Below, one piece after another: positions 4,167-23,027 of a stretch of DNA of 64,000 nucleotides. The notes beneath the pieces are model-generated. The model ran no database searches. It was not told the DNA's origin and saw nothing but the letters and a program-made list of their open reading frames with translations. Position numbers and translations under genes: made by a program. Each line of letters begins with the position of its first letter. Within the stretch, counting starts at the first letter, position 1. The DNA comes from Paracoccus marcusii (GTDB lineage: Bacteria; Pseudomonadota; Alphaproteobacteria; Rhodobacterales; Rhodobacteraceae), in assembly GCF_028621715.1 (NCBI RefSeq), contig NZ_CP117466.1, positions 2,678,501-2,742,500 of the forward strand, read 5' to 3'.

Positions 4167-5234
4167 ATGTCCTCGATGTTCGAACCCGTGACCCTGGGGG
4201 CGGTGACGCTGCGCAACCGGATCGTGATGGCCCCGCTGACCCGGTCGCGGGCGGGCGATGCACGCGTGCCCAACGACCTGATGGTCGAATACTATCGCCA
4301 GCGCGCCGGCGCCGGTCTGATCCTGTCCGAAGCGACCAGCATCATGCCGATGGGCGTGGGATACGAGGCGACGCCCGGCATCTGGAACGACGACCAGATC
4401 GCCGGCTGGTCGAAGGTGACCCAGGCCGTGCACGAACGCGACGGCCTGATCTACCTGCAGCTGTGGCATGTGGGCCGCATTTCCGACCCGCAGCTGCTGG
4501 GCGGGCAGCTGCCGGTGGCGCCGTCGTCGATCCAGCCGGACGGGCATGTCAGCCTGCTGCGTCCCAAGCGTGCCTATGTCACGCCCCGCGCCCTGACCAC
4601 CGAGGAGATCCCCGGCATCGTCGAGGCCTATCGTCAGGCGGCCGAGAACGCGCGCCACGCGGGCTTTGACGGGGTCGAGATCCACGCCGCGAACGGCTAT
4701 CTGATCGACCAGTTCCTGCAGGACCGCAGCAACACCCGCACCGACCAGTATGGCGGCGACATCCAGAACCGCGTCCGCTTCCTGAACGAGATCACCGATG
4801 CGGTGGTCGGCGTCTGGGGCGGCGACCGGGTCGGTGCCCACCTGGCGCCCCGCGGCGACAGCCATGACATGGGCGACAGCGATGCCCGCGCGCTGTTCAC
4901 GCAGGTCGCCCGCGACATGCGCGCGCGCGGCGTGGCCTTCCTGTGCCTGCGCGAACGCGTGGCCGAGGACAGCCTGCTGGACGCCATCCGCGACGCCTTC
5001 GGCGGCCCGGTCATCGCGAACGAGGGCCTGACCCGCGAAAGCGCCGAGGCCCTGCTGGCCGAGGGTCGCGCCGATGCCGTGGCCTTCGGGCGCGATTTCA
5101 TCGCGACGCCGGACCTGCCCGAACGGTTCCGTCGCGGCCTGCCGCTGAACGACCAGGACCCGGCCACATTCTATGCAGGCGGCGCCGAGGGATACACCGA
5201 CTATCCCACCGCCTCCGACATCGCCGCGGAATGA
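4167..5234 (+). CDS. Old Yellow Enzyme / NADH:flavin oxidoreductase, NemA-like alkene reductase
   Basis: FMN-dependent reductase of activated C=C bonds or nitro-compounds, 355 residues, the usual length for the NemA/OYE branch. Typical segments are visible: N-terminal LGAVTLRNRIVMAPLTRSRA, LQLWHVGR around residue 98, the substrate-anion-binding H/N pair in IHAANGYL near 172, and the YGG..NRVRF segment carrying the active-site Tyr environment. A strong ribosome binding site AAAGGAGG lies 7 bases before the ATG. The gene is monocistronic and is transcribed divergently from the antiporter. It is followed by a clear hairpin terminator. The physiological substrate cannot be told from sequence. Confidence 0.93.
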   Translation: MSSMFEPVTLGAVTLRNRIVMAPLTRSRAGDARVPNDLMVEYYRQRAGAGLILSEATSIMPMGVGYEATPGIWNDDQIAGWSKVTQAVHERDGLIYLQLWHVGRISDPQLLGGQLPVAPSSIQPDGHVSLLRPKRAYVTPRALTTEEIPGIVEAYRQAAENARHAGFDGVEIHAANGYLIDQFLQDRSNTRTDQYGGDIQNRVRFLNEITDAVVGVWGGDRVGAHLAPRGDSHDMGDSDARALFTQVARDMRARGVAFLCLRERVAEDSLLDAIRDAFGGPVIANEGLTRESAEALLAEGRADAVAFGRDFIATPDLPERFRRGLPLNDQDPATFYAGGAEGYTDYPTASDIAAE

Positions 5235-17998: not shown

Positions 17999-18457
17999 TC
18001 AGGGATCGCGCATGATCTCGGCCAGGCGCCGACGTTCGTCGGGGTCCAGGGCCTCGACCTCGGGCGCCGGGCGGTTGCGGGCGCGCAGGAAGCCGGCCGC
18101 GGTCAGCAATGCAACCAGCGCCATCAGGGGCGCGGCCAGCCACAGGATCATGTTCGCCCCATCGGGCCGCGGATTGAACAGCACGAATTCGCCAAAGCGG
18201 TCGGCGACCGCGTCGATCACCTGGTCGTTGCTGTCCCCCTCCAGCAACCGCTCGCGCACGTAGAGCCGCAGGTCGCGGCTGATCGGCGCGTTGGATTCGT
18301 CGATGTTCTCTCCTTGGCAGACGGGGCAACGCAGCTGTTGCGAAATCTCGCGGGCGCGTGCCTCCATCGCGGCGTCGGGCAGGACCTCGTCAGGCTGGAC
18401 GGCCAAGACCGGACAGGCGGTCAGGATCAGCGCCAGTGCGGCGGCCCGGACCCTCAT
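17999..18457 (-). CDS. ccmH: Cytochrome c-type biogenesis protein CcmH
   Basis: Periplasmic thiol oxidoreductase that keeps the CxxCH cysteines of apocytochrome c reduced for heme ligation; it is membrane-anchored. 152 residues: signal peptide (1-19), the redox motif LRCPVCQGENIDESN near residue 43, and a transmembrane anchor (about 103-125) with a short cytoplasmic tail. Its start overlaps the ccmF stop (ATGA-type, 18454-18457), so the two are coupled. ccmI, commonly fused or adjacent elsewhere, is not in the immediate neighbourhood. Confidence 0.96.
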   Translation of the reverse strand: MRVRAAALALILTACPVLAVQPDEVLPDAAMEARAREISQQLRCPVCQGENIDESNAPISRDLRLYVRERLLEGDSNDQVIDAVADRFGEFVLFNPRPDGANMILWLAAPLMALVALLTAAGFLRARNRPAPEVEALDPDERRRLAEIMRDP

Positions 18458-20418
18458 TCCGCGGGGACCGCGCCGGGGCGCGCCTGCCGGGCCGCACCCG
18501 CCGCCACGCGATAGCGCCGGTCGGTCAGGCTGATCAGCCCGCCGATGGCCATCATCAGACAGCCCGCCCAGATCCAGTTGGCAAAGGGCTTGATATAGGT
18601 CCGCACCGCCCATCCGCCGCCGGGCTGTTCGTCACCCAGAACGACATACAGATCGCGCCAGAAGCCGTAATCAATTGCGGCCTCGGTCGTGGGCATCCCC
18701 TGGACGGGATAGACGCGCTTTTCCGGAGAGAGGATCGCGACCGGGCTGCCGTCGCGGCTGGCCTCGATCACGGCCTTCTGGGCCAGATAGTTGGGTCCGT
18801 CCGCCCGGCGCACGTCGCGCAGGACCAAGTCATAGCTGCCGACCGCAAAGGGCTGGTCGATCTGCGCCACGCGCACATCCTCGACCTGCCAAGCCTGGAT
18901 CAGGGACACGGCCACGAAGGTGACGCCCAGCCCGGAATGCGCGACCGCCTTGCCCCAATCGGCACGAGGCAGGCGCAACAGGCGCGACGCGCCGGAACTG
19001 CCGGTCCGCAGCCACAGATCGGCCAGCGCGCCGAAGATCAGCCAGGATCCCAGCCCCGCCCCAATCACGGCAAGCGCCGAATTGCCGGTCGACACCGCAA
19101 AAACCAGCATCATGATCGCCGCCGACAGGATCAGCGGACCGCGCAGCGGGCGCAGGCTGCGGGCCAGCGTAGCGCGTTTCCACGGCATCAGCGACCCGAT
19201 GGGCAGGGCGATCGCCAACACGATCATGAACGGGGTAAAGGCCTGGTTGAAGAAGGGCGGGCCCACGGAAAGCACCCGTCCCCAGACCATCTCGGCCACC
19301 AGCGGCCAGATCGTGCCGATGAACACGACAAAGGCCGACACGGCCAACAGCACGTTGTTCAGCACCAACGCGCCCTCGCGCGACAGGGGGGCGAAGACGC
19401 CCTTGGCGGTCATCTCGGACGCGCGGGCCGCGAACAGCGTCAGGGCGCCGCCGATGAACACCGCAAGGATCGCCAGGATGAAGACGCCACGTTCAGGGTC
19501 GTTTGCGAAGCTGTGGACAGAGGTGATGACCCCCGATCGGACGATGAACGTGCCGATCAGCGAGAAACCGAACGCCATGATCGCCAGAAGGATCGTCCAG
19601 CTTTTCAACGCCTCGCGCTTTTCGACGACGATGGCGGAATGCAGCAGCGCGGCGGCCAGCAACCAGGGCATGAAGCTGGCGTTCTCGACCGGATCCCAGA
19701 ACCAGAAGCCGCCCCAGCCCAGTTCGTAATAGGCCCACCAGGAGCCAAGCGCGATGCCGATGGTCAGAAACACCCAGGCAGCCAGGGTCCAGGGACGGAC
19801 CCAACGCGCCCAGGCCGCATCCACGCGACCCTCTATCAGGGCGGCGACGGCAAAGCTGAAGGCCATCGAAAGGCCGACATAACCCAGATACAGGAACGGC
19901 GGGTGGAAAGCCAAACCTGGGTCCTGCAGCAGCGGGTTCAGGTCGCGCCCGTCGAAAGGCGGATTGCCCATGCGCCAGAACGGGTTCGACGTGAAGATGA
20001 TGAATGCATAGAACGCCACGCTGACCGATGCCTGGACCCCCAGCACCCGTGCCCGCAGACTGGGCGGCAGGTTGCCCCCGAACAGCGCCGCCGCCGCGCC
20101 GAACAGCGCGAGGATCAGCACCCACAGCAGCATCGAGCCCTCGTGGTTGCCCCAGACACCGCTGATCTTGTAGAGCATCGGCTTGAGAGTGTGCGAGTTC
20201 TCGTAGACCAGCAGGACCGAGAAGTCGGACGTGACGAAGGCGATCGTCAGTGCGCCGAAGCTGATGACCATCAGCAGCAACTGGGCCATGGCCGCCGGGC
20301 GGGCGCTGTCCATCCAGCCGTGCCATTCCTTTGCGGCGCCGATCATCGGCACGGTCATCTGATAGATCGCGACCATGAAGGCCAGGATCAGGGCGAAATG
20401 GCCAAGTTCAGCGATCAT
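18454..20418 (-). CDS. ccmF: Heme lyase / c-type cytochrome biogenesis protein CcmF
   Basis: Large polytopic inner-membrane protein (654 residues, family length about 650), the core of system I heme ligation to apocytochrome c. The WWD signature is present (WGGFWFWDPVENASFMPW near residue 235), as is the long periplasmic loop before the C-terminal helix. The start MIAELGHFAL at 20418 is the conserved family N-terminus; AAAGGA lies upstream. The open frame continues ten codons further without support. A GC-rich hairpin (20459-20484) separates it from the holin gene upstream, which breaks the usual ccmE-ccmF adjacency. Confidence 0.96.
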   Translation of the reverse strand: MIAELGHFALILAFMVAIYQMTVPMIGAAKEWHGWMDSARPAAMAQLLLMVISFGALTIAFVTSDFSVLLVYENSHTLKPMLYKISGVWGNHEGSMLLWVLILALFGAAAALFGGNLPPSLRARVLGVQASVSVAFYAFIIFTSNPFWRMGNPPFDGRDLNPLLQDPGLAFHPPFLYLGYVGLSMAFSFAVAALIEGRVDAAWARWVRPWTLAAWVFLTIGIALGSWWAYYELGWGGFWFWDPVENASFMPWLLAAALLHSAIVVEKREALKSWTILLAIMAFGFSLIGTFIVRSGVITSVHSFANDPERGVFILAILAVFIGGALTLFAARASEMTAKGVFAPLSREGALVLNNVLLAVSAFVVFIGTIWPLVAEMVWGRVLSVGPPFFNQAFTPFMIVLAIALPIGSLMPWKRATLARSLRPLRGPLILSAAIMMLVFAVSTGNSALAVIGAGLGSWLIFGALADLWLRTGSSGASRLLRLPRADWGKAVAHSGLGVTFVAVSLIQAWQVEDVRVAQIDQPFAVGSYDLVLRDVRRADGPNYLAQKAVIEASRDGSPVAILSPEKRVYPVQGMPTTEAAIDYGFWRDLYVVLGDEQPGGGWAVRTYIKPFANWIWAGCLMMAIGGLISLTDRRYRVAAGAARQARPGAVPAE

Positions 20419-20458
20419 CTGCGGGCATCCTTTGTTGCCCGACAGCATAGGGATGCGG

Positions 20459-20484
20459 CCAAGGGGGGAAAAGCCCCCCCTTGG
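20459..20484 (-). repeat. Strong 10-bp hairpin between the lysis cassette and ccmF
   Basis: CCAAGGGGGG at 20459-20468 pairs with CCCCCCTTGG at 20475-20484. There is no U-tract on either strand, so it is not a textbook intrinsic terminator. Its place, after the holin stop and 41 bases before the ccmF start, suggests an attenuating or mRNA-stabilising element that partly uncouples the two. Confidence 0.6.
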
Positions 20485-20520
20485 TCCCGGTCGCTCAGTT
20501 TTGCGTGCGGGCCTTGCGGC

Positions 20521-21048
20521 CTATTCGCGCAGGGTCGCCAGCCAGTCGCGCAGTGCCGCGTTGTCGGCGAAATCGTCCGCGGAGATGGCGACAGGCGTTG
20601 TGACGGTGCCGGAGACGATGGTCGTCTCCTCGGTCACGGGGGCGGGCCAGACGCGGTGGCGGAAATGATGCGCCTCGCGCGCGCCGAAATAGAACCCCAC
20701 GATGGCGCCCAGCAGCCACCACAGGGGTTCGGGGACGCGTTGCAGCCCCTCCATGCGGATGCCGAATCCGATCGGCTCGACCATCGCATAGATGAACAGC
20801 GCCATCGTCCCTAAAGCCAGCAGCGGGCGCGGCAGGCGGTTCAGGCCGTTGACGAACCCGTCGAACCAGCCCTGCCGCGGCACCGCGAATTCCTGGCCGT
20901 GCTGGGCGATGGCGCGGGCATAGGCCTCCTCGTCCAGTTCCATCCGGCGGGTGGCGTTCTGGGTAAAGACCTCGGCCATGCCGGTCGCGGCGCTGCCCAG
21001 GGCGGTGACGGTCGGGGCGATTCCGATGAAGCGGTCGATCAGGCCCAT
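20521..21048 (-). CDS. Holin family protein (3TM-holin type), probable GTA/phage-type lysis protein
   Basis: 175 residues. A basic amphipathic N-terminus (MGLIDRFIGIAPTVTALGSAATGMAEVFTQNAT) matches the holin family of Rhodobacterales. Two clear hydrophobic helices follow (about 75-95 and 108-122), then a soluble acidic C-terminus ending in NAALRDWLATLRE. It is co-directional with, and overlaps by 10 bases, the GH108 endolysin gene upstream, the usual holin/endolysin pairing. Expected role: making inner-membrane lesions so the muramidase reaches peptidoglycan. It lies inside the ccm operon, where it has no role in cytochrome maturation. In Rhodobacter capsulatus an equivalent pair releases gene transfer agent particles (established knowledge; orthology here is inferred). 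Confidence 0.85.
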   Translation of the reverse strand: MGLIDRFIGIAPTVTALGSAATGMAEVFTQNATRRMELDEEAYARAIAQHGQEFAVPRQGWFDGFVNGLNRLPRPLLALGTMALFIYAMVEPIGFGIRMEGLQRVPEPLWWLLGAIVGFYFGAREAHHFRHRVWPAPVTEETTIVSGTVTTPVAISADDFADNAALRDWLATLRE

Positions 21049-21650
21049 GCGGATGTCCTCTGGCGGTGCTCAGCCTCGCTGAGGCGATAGCGGGGGGCCA
21101 TGAACTCCTCGGCGCGGGTGATCCAGCCGCCCTTGCCGCCCGCCTTGCTGCGCGCGTACTTGCGGCTGGCCGGGCGCTGATCGGCCAGCGCATAGTAATA
21201 GTTGCGCCGCGCGATCCCATAGGCGTCAACCAGATGATCCGGCGCAGCCTCGGCCGCGTCTGCCACGGCCGCGATGGTCATCGGCCCGACGACCCCGTCA
21301 TCGGCGGTGCGAAAGCCCATTCGGCTGACCAGGCGCTGCAGAATCTTGACCGCATTCCCGCCTGCGTTGACATACATGTCAAAGACGCTGGCCTGCAGCG
21401 GTTCGGGCAGTTCGGCAAGGCGTGGCTTGCGAAAATAATGCTCGACGAAGATCTGTTCGGCCTGCGCCCGCGTCAGGGCGCGCACATCGGCGGCGTCGAT
21501 GCGGCCATCGCGGTTCAGGTCCATCCCCAGGGACTGCATCGTGCCGATGGTGACGCCAAAGTTGGTGGCCCCGCCCGGATCGTCGGGGTCGTTCACGTAC
21601 CCGCCTTCGCGGGCCACGATCTGACGGGCAATCTGTTCGACGCTTGGCAT
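21039..21650 (-). CDS. Holin-associated N-acetylmuramidase, GH108 endolysin
   Basis: 203 residues. The N-terminal GH108 domain has the catalytic-Glu motif IVAREGGYVNDPDDPGGATN near residue 11 and the ITIGTMQSLG-like segment after it. A PG_binding_3-type C-terminal half includes LVSRMGFRTADDGVVGPMTIAAV and GLNFYR-like NYYYAL. A DLNRDGRIDAADV stretch resembles a dockerin/EF-hand loop but is part of the GH108 fold in this family. It has no signal peptide, so export depends on the holin. The ATG at 21650 follows GGGGG. The 96-base leader holds a perfect CtrA box. It acts with the overlapping holin gene. Confidence 0.9.
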   Translation of the reverse strand: MPSVEQIARQIVAREGGYVNDPDDPGGATNFGVTIGTMQSLGMDLNRDGRIDAADVRALTRAQAEQIFVEHYFRKPRLAELPEPLQASVFDMYVNAGGNAVKILQRLVSRMGFRTADDGVVGPMTIAAVADAAEAAPDHLVDAYGIARRNYYYALADQRPASRKYARSKAGGKGGWITRAEEFMAPRYRLSEAEHRQRTSAWA

Positions 21651-21715
21651 GACACCCCCATGTCTGACGCGCGCCCCGGATCGGGGCCGCATCGGGGGAT
21701 GCTGGGGCGATGCGG

Positions 21716-21731
21716 TTAACCTGTCGTTAAC
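21716..21731 (-). promoter_or_regulatory. Exact CtrA-type binding site upstream of the endolysin-holin pair
   Basis: TTAA (21716-21719), seven bases CCTGTCG, then TTAAC (21727-21731) matches the alphaproteobacterial CtrA consensus TTAA-N7-TTAAC on both strands. It lies 66 bases before the endolysin start and just after the ccmE stop. This fits a dedicated, CtrA-controlled promoter for the lysis genes. Binding itself is inferred. Confidence 0.7.
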
Positions 21732-21746
21732 CCTGCGCGCGTTGCC

Positions 21747-22205
21747 TTAGGTGCCGGGTTCCTGATAGACGCCGGTCGCCTTCAGCGTATCCACCACCTC
21801 GCGGGGCATATAGGTCTCGTCATGCTTGGCCAGCAGGTCGCGCGCCTCGAACCGGCCGTCGCGGTAGTGACCCTTGGCGATGGTGCCCTGCCCTTCGCTG
21901 AACAGGTCCGGGCGGGGGTCGTTGCCGACATAGGTCACCGGGATCTCGACCGCGCCGTCGGTGATCACGAAATCGAACGCCATGCCGGTGCCATTGACGA
22001 TGGATCCGTCCTTAACCAGCCCGCCCAGCTGAAAGAACTCGTCGGGCTCGGGCGCCGTCTCGGCCACCTGGCTGGGAGAGCGATAGAGATTGATGCCGTC
22101 GCTGAAGCCGTATCCGATCAGCCCCACCGCCACGACCAGGGCCAGGCTTGCCGCCGCCAGAACCTGGACGCGGCGCTGCTTCTTCAGGGATTTCATGCCG
22201 GCCAT
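21747..22205 (-). CDS. ccmE: Cytochrome c maturation heme chaperone CcmE
   Basis: Covalently binds heme in the periplasm and hands it to CcmF/CcmH. 152 residues: one N-terminal membrane anchor (about 13-33) followed by an OB-fold domain with the conserved heme-binding His in LLAKHDETYMP near residue 130. Start: the ATG at 22205 has GAGGAGG five bases upstream, better than the in-frame ATG at 22196. It begins nine bases after murI ends, on the same strand. Downstream, instead of ccmF, comes the endolysin-holin pair with its own probable promoter. Confidence 0.96.
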   Translation of the reverse strand: MAGMKSLKKQRRVQVLAAASLALVVAVGLIGYGFSDGINLYRSPSQVAETAPEPDEFFQLGGLVKDGSIVNGTGMAFDFVITDGAVEIPVTYVGNDPRPDLFSEGQGTIAKGHYRDGRFEARDLLAKHDETYMPREVVDTLKATGVYQEPGT

Positions 22206-22214
22206 GGGTCCTCC

Positions 22215-23027
22215 TCAGGCGGGATCAAAGCTGATGGCGCGGCGCAGGAACTGCGTGGCCTTGCCGCCCACCCGCACCGGATCGCCGGTCGTCAGATACA
22301 TCGACGTCGTGCCCGACCCAACGAATTCGGGCCTGCGCGTCAGATAGTCGGCCAGGCTTTCGGCGACCAGCCCCGCCTGGCTGAAGACCTTGACCTGCGG
22401 CCCCAGGGCGCGCTGGAACGCGTCCTGCATCAGCGGGTAATGGGTGCAGCCCAGCACCGCGGCCTCCGGGTACGGCATACGGCGCTTCAGCGCCTCGACA
22501 TGGCTGGTGACCAGGGCCTCCGCCAGCTGCTCGTCGCCCATCTCGATCGCATCGACCACGCCGGCGCAGGGCTGGGCCTCGACATCGACGCCCACCGCGC
22601 GGAACGCCAGTTCGCGCTGAAACGCGCGGCTGGCGACGGTCGCGGGTGTGGCAAACAGCGCGACGTTGTTGACCGCCACCCGGCGCGGCGGCGAATTATC
22701 GCCCCAGGCCCGTTCGGTCAGCGCCTCGATCATGGGAACGAACACGCCCAGGACGCGCTTGTCCGCCGGCAGCCAGGTTTCCTGCATCCGCTTCAGCGCC
22801 GCGGCACTGGCGGTGTTGCAGGCCAGGATCACCAGATCGCAGCCCTCGTCCCACAGGCGCTCGACGCCCTTGCAGGTCAGATCGAAAATGTCGTCGGCGG
22901 TGCGCACCCCATAGGGCGCATGAGCGTTGTCGCCCAGATAGACCAGCGGCAGGTCAGGCAGGCGCGCGGTAATGGCCTGATGGACCGTCAGCCCGCCCAG
23001 ACCCGAATCGAACACCCCAATCGCCAT
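22215..23027 (-). CDS. murI: Glutamate racemase
   Basis: Interconverts L- and D-glutamate for peptidoglycan. At 270 residues it has family length. Both catalytic cysteines are seen, in ILACNTASA (about residue 73) and VLGCTHYPL (about 190), together with the N-terminal [12 protein letters not shown] and the [11 protein letters not shown] loop. It starts about 70 bases from the end of the indolepyruvate oxidoreductase gene upstream and leads into ccmE. Confidence 0.97.

Follow-up and report, generated by a model that had tools for sequence, protein, structure and literature searches.

A gene transfer agent lysis cassette between ccmE and ccmF of Paracoccus marcusii, with a CtrA promoter that is probably merged with an RNA lock on the endolysin

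Introduction

Gene transfer agents (GTAs) kill the cell that produces them, and how lysis is kept off until the particles are ready is an open question. The question arises in Paracoccus marcusii, where, within the window (the whole stretch of 64,000 nucleotides analysed here, lying in a single contig of 3,175,811 bases), a muramidase gene and a holin gene stand between the housekeeping genes ccmE and ccmF. How can so lethal a pair be tolerated at such an address, and how can ccmF be expressed through it? The pair resembles rcc00555/rcc00556 of the Rhodobacter capsulatus GTA (RcGTA). There too a holin and an endolysin of the GH108 type are encoded apart from the head-tail cluster, and two papers place them under CtrA and GafA control (PMC9638019, PMC6363796); for the pair described here, such control is predicted from sequence. 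For the R. capsulatus lysis promoter, putative CtrA half-sites are reported, with CtrA-P acting together with GafA (Sherlock and others, PMC9638019), and the up-regulation of the endolysin by GafA is reported to be diminished without ctrA (Fogg, PMC6363796). Here, we propose that the P. marcusii pair, a GTA lysis module set into an old ccmE-ccmF-ccmH gene order, probably has a CtrA promoter and an RNA lock on the endolysin merged into one element.

Gene identities and genomic context

The gene identities and gene order computed for the locus are as follows.

22205-21747, minus strand: ccmE (Pfam CcmE, E 3.3e-25), adjoining the 5' side of the endolysin gene; stop codon at 21749-21747
21692-21039, minus strand: longest endolysin ORF, from the ORF list
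21039..21650, minus strand: GTA endolysin (GH108 muramidase with PG_binding_3, by Pfam), from the probable start codon at 21650
21048-20521, minus strand: GTA holin of the three-transmembrane type (PF11351 GTA_holin_3TM, E 1.5e-27)
20459..20484, minus strand: perfect 10-bp hairpin between holin and ccmF, lacking a T run, from sequence inspection and folding
18454..20448, minus strand: ccmF (Pfam CcmF), downstream of the holin
17999..18454, minus strand: ccmH (Pfam CcmH), the downstream gene

The initial annotation had placed a GH108 muramidase and a holin with a 10-bp overlap between ccmE and ccmF, and both the ORFs and the Pfam matches bear this out. The endolysin ORF matches Glyco_hydro_108 (E 6.3e-28) as well as PG_binding_3, the two ORFs overlap at 21039-21048, and the holin family carries the Pfam description 'Holin of 3TMs, for gene-transfer release'. 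We picked the endolysin start at 21650 from the ends of homologues and the position of the Shine-Dalgarno sequence. The holin start is preceded by a separate purine-rich stretch, which leaves the coupling of the holin to the endolysin uncertain. Among named endolysins, the closest is from P. marcusii (100%), in a comparison that may leave out records very similar to the own genome. As to the hairpin at 20459-20484, it may separate the lysis from the ccm transcripts or protect an RNA end.

A search of the same genome for the GTA structural cluster, a check suggested at the outset, located it about 256 kb from the lysis pair, around a single-copy GTA_TIM (gp15-type) gene (E 1.6e-147) whose neighbourhood holds terminase, portal, head protease, major capsid and tail families, with PHROG matches in 9 of the 10 ORFs given. 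The outcome named at the outset as refuting, a genome lacking such a cluster, is therefore not what is seen. The GTA structural genes do not adjoin the pair; the earlier remark was that no capsid, integrase or other phage gene is near it. The genome also encodes CtrA (71% identical to Caulobacter CtrA) and a GafA-like gene with DUF6456 and weak HTH matches; GafA itself carries DUF6456, and we take this gene to be of the GafA type. Among 100 Rhodobacteraceae genomes, some of them incomplete, the holin family occurs in 86 and GTA_TIM in 87, with both in 80, the holin only in 6, GTA_TIM only in 7 and neither in 7 (Fisher p 2.4e-4). The view of the pair as a detached GTA lysis module is thus upheld by the gene-transfer-release family in Pfam and by the GTA cluster, CtrA and GafA-like gene of the same genome; it is an RcGTA-type lysis cassette at its usual address in the family. 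We rejected a prophage origin of the pair: structural genes are missing from its surroundings, and the ccmE address is common to its best relatives. Separately, a DUF2793 gene (L113:18570-19298), of what we take to be the type of the RcGTA tail fibre, comes after the gp15-type gene of the GTA cluster.

Conservation of the ccmE address

Our comparison, with one locus per genome, covered 122 Paracoccus genomes (125 less one with no match, one in fragments and one at a contig edge) and 78 other Rhodobacteraceae genomes (84 with the holin family, less 6 not taken in; second copies left out). The gene directly upstream of the endolysin is ccmE in 104 of the 122 and in 63 of the 78. Moreover, a set of 80 named loci chosen for endolysin similarity has ccmE no more than 350 bp upstream in 70 cases and ccmF no more than 1.7 kb past the holin in 61. 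The position is thus shared across the family and no peculiarity of this genome. The premise that ccmE and ccmF are otherwise adjacent finds support in 14 family genomes negative for PF11351: ccmE was found in 12 of them, with ccmF directly following, within about 140 bp, in 6, separated by a gap of about 0.9-1.0 kb in 2, and not seen in the sequence piece covered in the other 4. The 6 with direct succession display the junction as it is when no cassette is present. Two loci, L123 and L128 (genomes G048 and G083), have GTA_TIM and no GTA holin family, with about 0.9-1.0 kb between ccmE and ccmF.

Among the Paracoccus exceptions (L049, L144, L056, L058, L173), the cassette stands behind other, apparently codirectional genes, two of which resemble CinA and MltG as judged by eye from the ORFs; the relocated cassettes have mostly kept a CtrA half-site or box together with the hairpin described below. 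At L344 (G213:C1 3756800-3757450), close to a contig end, the start of the GTA endolysin recurs as a frameshifted second copy that has a full box; an intact copy lies near the beginning of the same contig, whose ends possibly overlap as those of a circular contig. We also note that ccmE is reported as one of 14 gene families on the translational-efficiency trend of GTA genes (PMC9765227), on which its linkage to the lysis genes could bear.

The CtrA box and predicted -10 hexamer

The promoter elements in front of the endolysin are listed here from the CtrA box downstream.

21715..21730 (plus-strand match 21716-21731), minus strand: CtrA box TTAA-N7-TTAAC, exact, with half-sites at 21730-21727 and, as TTAAC, 21719-21715
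21699..21704, minus strand: predicted -10 hexamer CAGCAT, by its position relative to the right half-site
21692..21692 (right half-site +27), minus strand: predicted transcription start, from the -10 position, 42 nt before the start codon

The exact TTAA-N7-TTAAC noticed earlier in the leader of the pair is present and matches on both strands, because both half-sites read GTTAAC. In the 3.18-Mb genome, this pattern gives 12 strand-matches versus 2 for the reversed pattern. Within the 105 bp that precede the endolysin start, a full box occurs in 107 of 122 Paracoccus genomes versus none of the 78 others, a single one of which has it without the final C; in dinucleotide shuffles of the leaders its frequency is about 0.000. 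TTAAC alone, sought at -85 to -36, is found in 113/122 Paracoccus and 56/78 other genomes (absent from this zone in 22 of the latter), compared with 4% and 3% of the shuffles. Conservation falls on the box as such, its N7 spacer differing from species to species. In its full form, the CtrA box is a trait of Paracoccus, strongly constrained there. The expectation of a CtrA site at an RcGTA-type lysis pair holds for Paracoccus in the form of the full box, but does not extend in that form to the 78 other genomes, or to R. capsulatus, for which putative half-sites are reported.

The distance from the right half-site to a -10 signature is fixed. The two key bases of a -10 hexamer are A and T, and these stand at +16 and +20 of the right half-site in all 119 anchored Paracoccus leaders and in 39 of 56 other anchored leaders (the signature is missing in the remaining 17), whereas the best other offset gives 3 and 7. 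From this we infer a start near +27. The box would then span about -38 to -23, which agrees with the R. sphaeroides flgB2 promoter, where CtrA elements are reported at about -35 and -27/-28 (PMC6180460). CtrA-activated promoters of Caulobacter and R. sphaeroides fla2 are described as having TTAA-N7-TTAA, or one half-site TTAA, at about -35 (PMC6180460, PMC11264516). Such a site and a predicted -10 are present here; unlike in those promoters, they precede a lysis gene, and the -10 is predicted to be part of an RNA hairpin.

The CG-N2-CG element

Upstream of the CtrA box lies one more conserved element.

21736..21745, minus strand: GCAACGCGCG, CG-N2-CG element and candidate GafA site, from conserved columns in anchored leaders

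Of the anchored leaders, 115 of 119 from Paracoccus and 48 of 56 from the other genomes have CG-N2-CG at -22 to -17 relative to the half-site. The leaders of GTA structural clusters, located by the large terminase in the own genome and in 19 of 20 fetched ones (one was without a terminase match), have CG-N-purine-CG four bases behind TTGAC in 12 of 20 cases, with a mean of 0.26 and a largest count of 2 in shuffles. According to PMC9638019, GafA binds the RcGTA cluster promoter and acts on the lysis genes; because the element is shared with GTA cluster promoters and GafA acts at both, we propose CG-N2-CG as a candidate GafA site. The form common to lysis and cluster leaders is only the looser CG-N-purine-CG, and not the ten-base Paracoccus element: around the own genome's GTA cluster and gafA-like gene, GCAACGC-N-CG shows no excess at up to one mismatch (12 versus 18.6 expected) or up to two (31 versus 33.1 expected), and genome-wide it is not rarer than its reversed control (54 versus 75). 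A shared CG-N2-CG element would give a sequence signature for GafA-controlled promoters. In the cluster leaders themselves (L113 at about 4479-4515, and L306-L325), the arrangement in those 12 of 20 genomes is TTGAC-N4-CG-N-purine-CG followed by a TATA-like hexamer.

A predicted hairpin over the endolysin Shine-Dalgarno sequence

RNA folding of the leader gives a hairpin with the following arms.

21694..21702, minus strand: 5' arm (GCATCCCCC), overlapping the -10 region
21651..21659, minus strand: 3' arm (GGGGGTGTC), containing the Shine-Dalgarno sequence

In RNA reading through from ccmE, this hairpin is predicted to cover the Shine-Dalgarno sequence. For the window, the G run is unpaired with a probability of 0.00-0.08 in the long RNA and of 0.33-0.76 in RNA from 21692; in the same way, the 99-nt leader piece has an MFE z of -2.58 versus shuffles, and the 56-nt own-start piece one of -0.58. 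Across the sets, the Shine-Dalgarno zone has an unpaired probability of 0.27 (others) and 0.25 (Paracoccus) versus 0.44 and 0.42 in shuffles. The first paired base of the 5' arm has a fixed place, its median position relative to the half-site being +17 in the others and +17.5 in Paracoccus. The arm sequences vary widely between genera, with their complementarity kept. When anchored by position, a column test for covariation showed nothing beyond weak and scattered signals, since the arms shift in register and the loops differ in length. We therefore used an arm-swap test, in which the pairing of a 5' arm with its own 3' arm is compared with its pairing with the 3' arms of other genomes. Here, the arms covary: the preference for the own arm reaches z -8.2 in the 78 other genomes and -5.1 in 93 non-redundant Paracoccus, or -9.3 and -5.9 with anchored leaders. 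A control stretch at the same locus, upstream of the half-site, gives z 0.1 and 1.1, and control genes of the same loci, which are not all flat, give 1.2 (ccmE), -3.1 (ccmF), -2.0 (murI) and -0.5 (ccmH).

We considered whether this is an ordinary GTA lysis cassette under CtrA and GafA, in which C-rich promoter DNA happens to meet a G-rich Shine-Dalgarno sequence and the hairpin regulates nothing. The pairing energy is indeed largely compositional, at -14.5 (others) and -16.5 (Paracoccus) kcal/mol for own arms and about -11.7 and -15.0 for swapped ones, and most single leaders are not significant against shuffled 5' arms, p 0.05 being reached by 29 of 78 others and 15 of 122 Paracoccus, although the leaders are significant as a set. 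We nevertheless hold this account to be unlikely, given the own-arm preference with its flat same-locus control, and given the open ribosome sites of distant GH108 genes in the same genus. These genes, presumed prophage genes with 30-53% identity (n 17, one of 18 leaders having been dropped for want of a start codon), have an unpaired probability of 0.55 (p 3.7e-8 and 1.6e-6 versus the two GTA sets).

The place of the hairpin just behind ccmE, and its strength in the window leader (the MFE z given above), would also suit a terminator or attenuator of ccmE transcription in place of a cover for the ribosome site. We regard this as quite improbable: a T run at the hairpin end (at least 6 T in 10 nt) occurs in 0 of 200 leaders, a pattern scan of 20380-22300 has no terminator-like site at the hairpin, the 3' arm is the Shine-Dalgarno sequence itself, and termination there would cut off ccmF and ccmH unless these had a promoter of their own. 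As for the inverted repeat being a DNA operator of a dimeric regulator, its overlap with the -10 region is what one would look for, but sequence conservation, as seen in the CtrA and CG elements, would be expected of an operator, whereas the arms differ widely between genera and stay complementary; we give this reading hardly any credence.

Long and short leader RNAs

The preferred reading, a ribosome-site cover merged with the promoter, predicts that the long and the short RNA differ in how far the site is open. With a start at +27, 77% (others) and 82% (Paracoccus) of the partners of the Shine-Dalgarno zone fall 5' of the start, and the unpaired probability of the zone rises from 0.25 to 0.53 in 56 others and from 0.25 to 0.55 in 119 Paracoccus. 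The zone is opened by more than 0.2 in 36 others and 84 Paracoccus, and closed by more than 0.2 in 0 and 0. Shortening opens control leaders too, from 0.46 to 0.58 (ccmE), 0.47 to 0.60 (ccmF), 0.45 to 0.63 (murI) and 0.31 to 0.37 (ccmH); in the same comparison the endolysin leader goes from 0.24 to 0.58, a larger change than in the controls. The -10 signature and the geometry fit a promoter lying within the DNA of the 5' arm, with the start site deduced from them.

Were the start instead upstream of the 5' arm, all transcripts would carry the hairpin, and the structure would be shut on the promoter's own RNA as well, to be opened at lysis by a trans-acting factor, either a protein or a small RNA. 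This strikes us as very improbable, because the -10 signature at +16/+20 (119/119 and 39/56) sets the start past most of the 5' arm; also, no conserved sequence was noticed in the hairpin loop.

The upstream neighbour gives mixed evidence on the lock, fitting it outside Paracoccus by two of three measures and opposing it within Paracoccus by the Shine-Dalgarno measure. At non-Paracoccus loci without ccmE as neighbour, the site is more open (0.33 versus 0.23, p 0.02) and the MFE differs (p 0.0004), with p 0.46 for the arm duplex. At the corresponding Paracoccus loci, the site is less open (0.18 versus 0.27, p 0.011), contrary to the lock; those upstream ORFs of the exceptions that were inspected look codirectional, judging from ORFs only, so that read-through would stay possible there. 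Eight loci whose upstream gene is divergent show no significant difference when compared with the 63 ccmE loci (p 0.09, 0.14 and 0.50).

Proposed mechanism and comparison with known systems

The promoter would thus be read, from upstream to downstream, as CG-N2-CG (candidate GafA site), the CtrA site at -38 to about -23, and the -10 hexamer, with the -10 region doubling as the 5' arm that, in the predicted hairpin, pairs with the endolysin Shine-Dalgarno sequence as 3' arm. We propose that read-through RNA from ccmE, as it carries both arms, would have its ribosome site shut, so that endolysin would not be made, and the same long RNA could serve ccmF and ccmH. RNA from the CtrA promoter, starting at about half-site +27 and without most of the 5' arm, would be translated and lead to lysis. 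The hairpin, the placement of the -10 and the CG-N2-CG element hence bear on how ccmF can be expressed through the cassette.

This arrangement is like that of phage T4 gene e (lysozyme), in which the promoter lies in the DNA encoding the 5' strand of a hairpin over the ribosome site (here a predicted one); in PMC3014915, long upstream transcripts are described as shut, and late transcripts from the promoter in the 5'-strand DNA as well translated. T4 gene e relies on a sigma factor of the phage and on phage transcripts of the early and late phases, whereas the GTA cassette is chromosomal and vertically kept, lies behind a housekeeping gene and involves a cell-cycle regulator of the host; the likeness would be one of convergence. 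The lysis module itself is already known as the RcGTA type, of which the full CtrA box is a Paracoccus-wide variant, unlike the putative half-sites reported for R. capsulatus. The hairpin and its overlap with the promoter appear undescribed in the literature searched: the passages on the R. capsulatus lysis genes make no mention of them, and the search as a whole, which covered mainly the main text of open papers, gave no account of a hairpin hiding the ribosome site of the GTA endolysin, or of the linkage to ccmE.

More broadly, the chances seem to us evenly balanced that the Rhodobacteraceae made a lethal module safe within a housekeeping cluster by letting the CtrA -10 region serve as an antisense arm, such that only RNA started by GafA and CtrA is translatable and the ccm transcript passes without lysis, with Paracoccus having swapped a half-site for a full site. 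Were the lock true, it would explain the persistence of a lysin gene between housekeeping genes across a bacterial family, and would present a domesticated element in which the T4 gene e design is combined with a cell-cycle regulator of the host. The model of hairpin and promoter is specific and cheaply testable.

Finally, among other occurrences of the pattern, an exact TTAA-N7-TTAAC stands about 40 bp before the start of a ComM/YifB-type gene (Mg_chelatase, ChlI; L118:889-2442, at about 2005941 of the own genome). ComM acts in GTA recipients, and through the box of this ComM-type gene donor lysis and uptake may share CtrA control.
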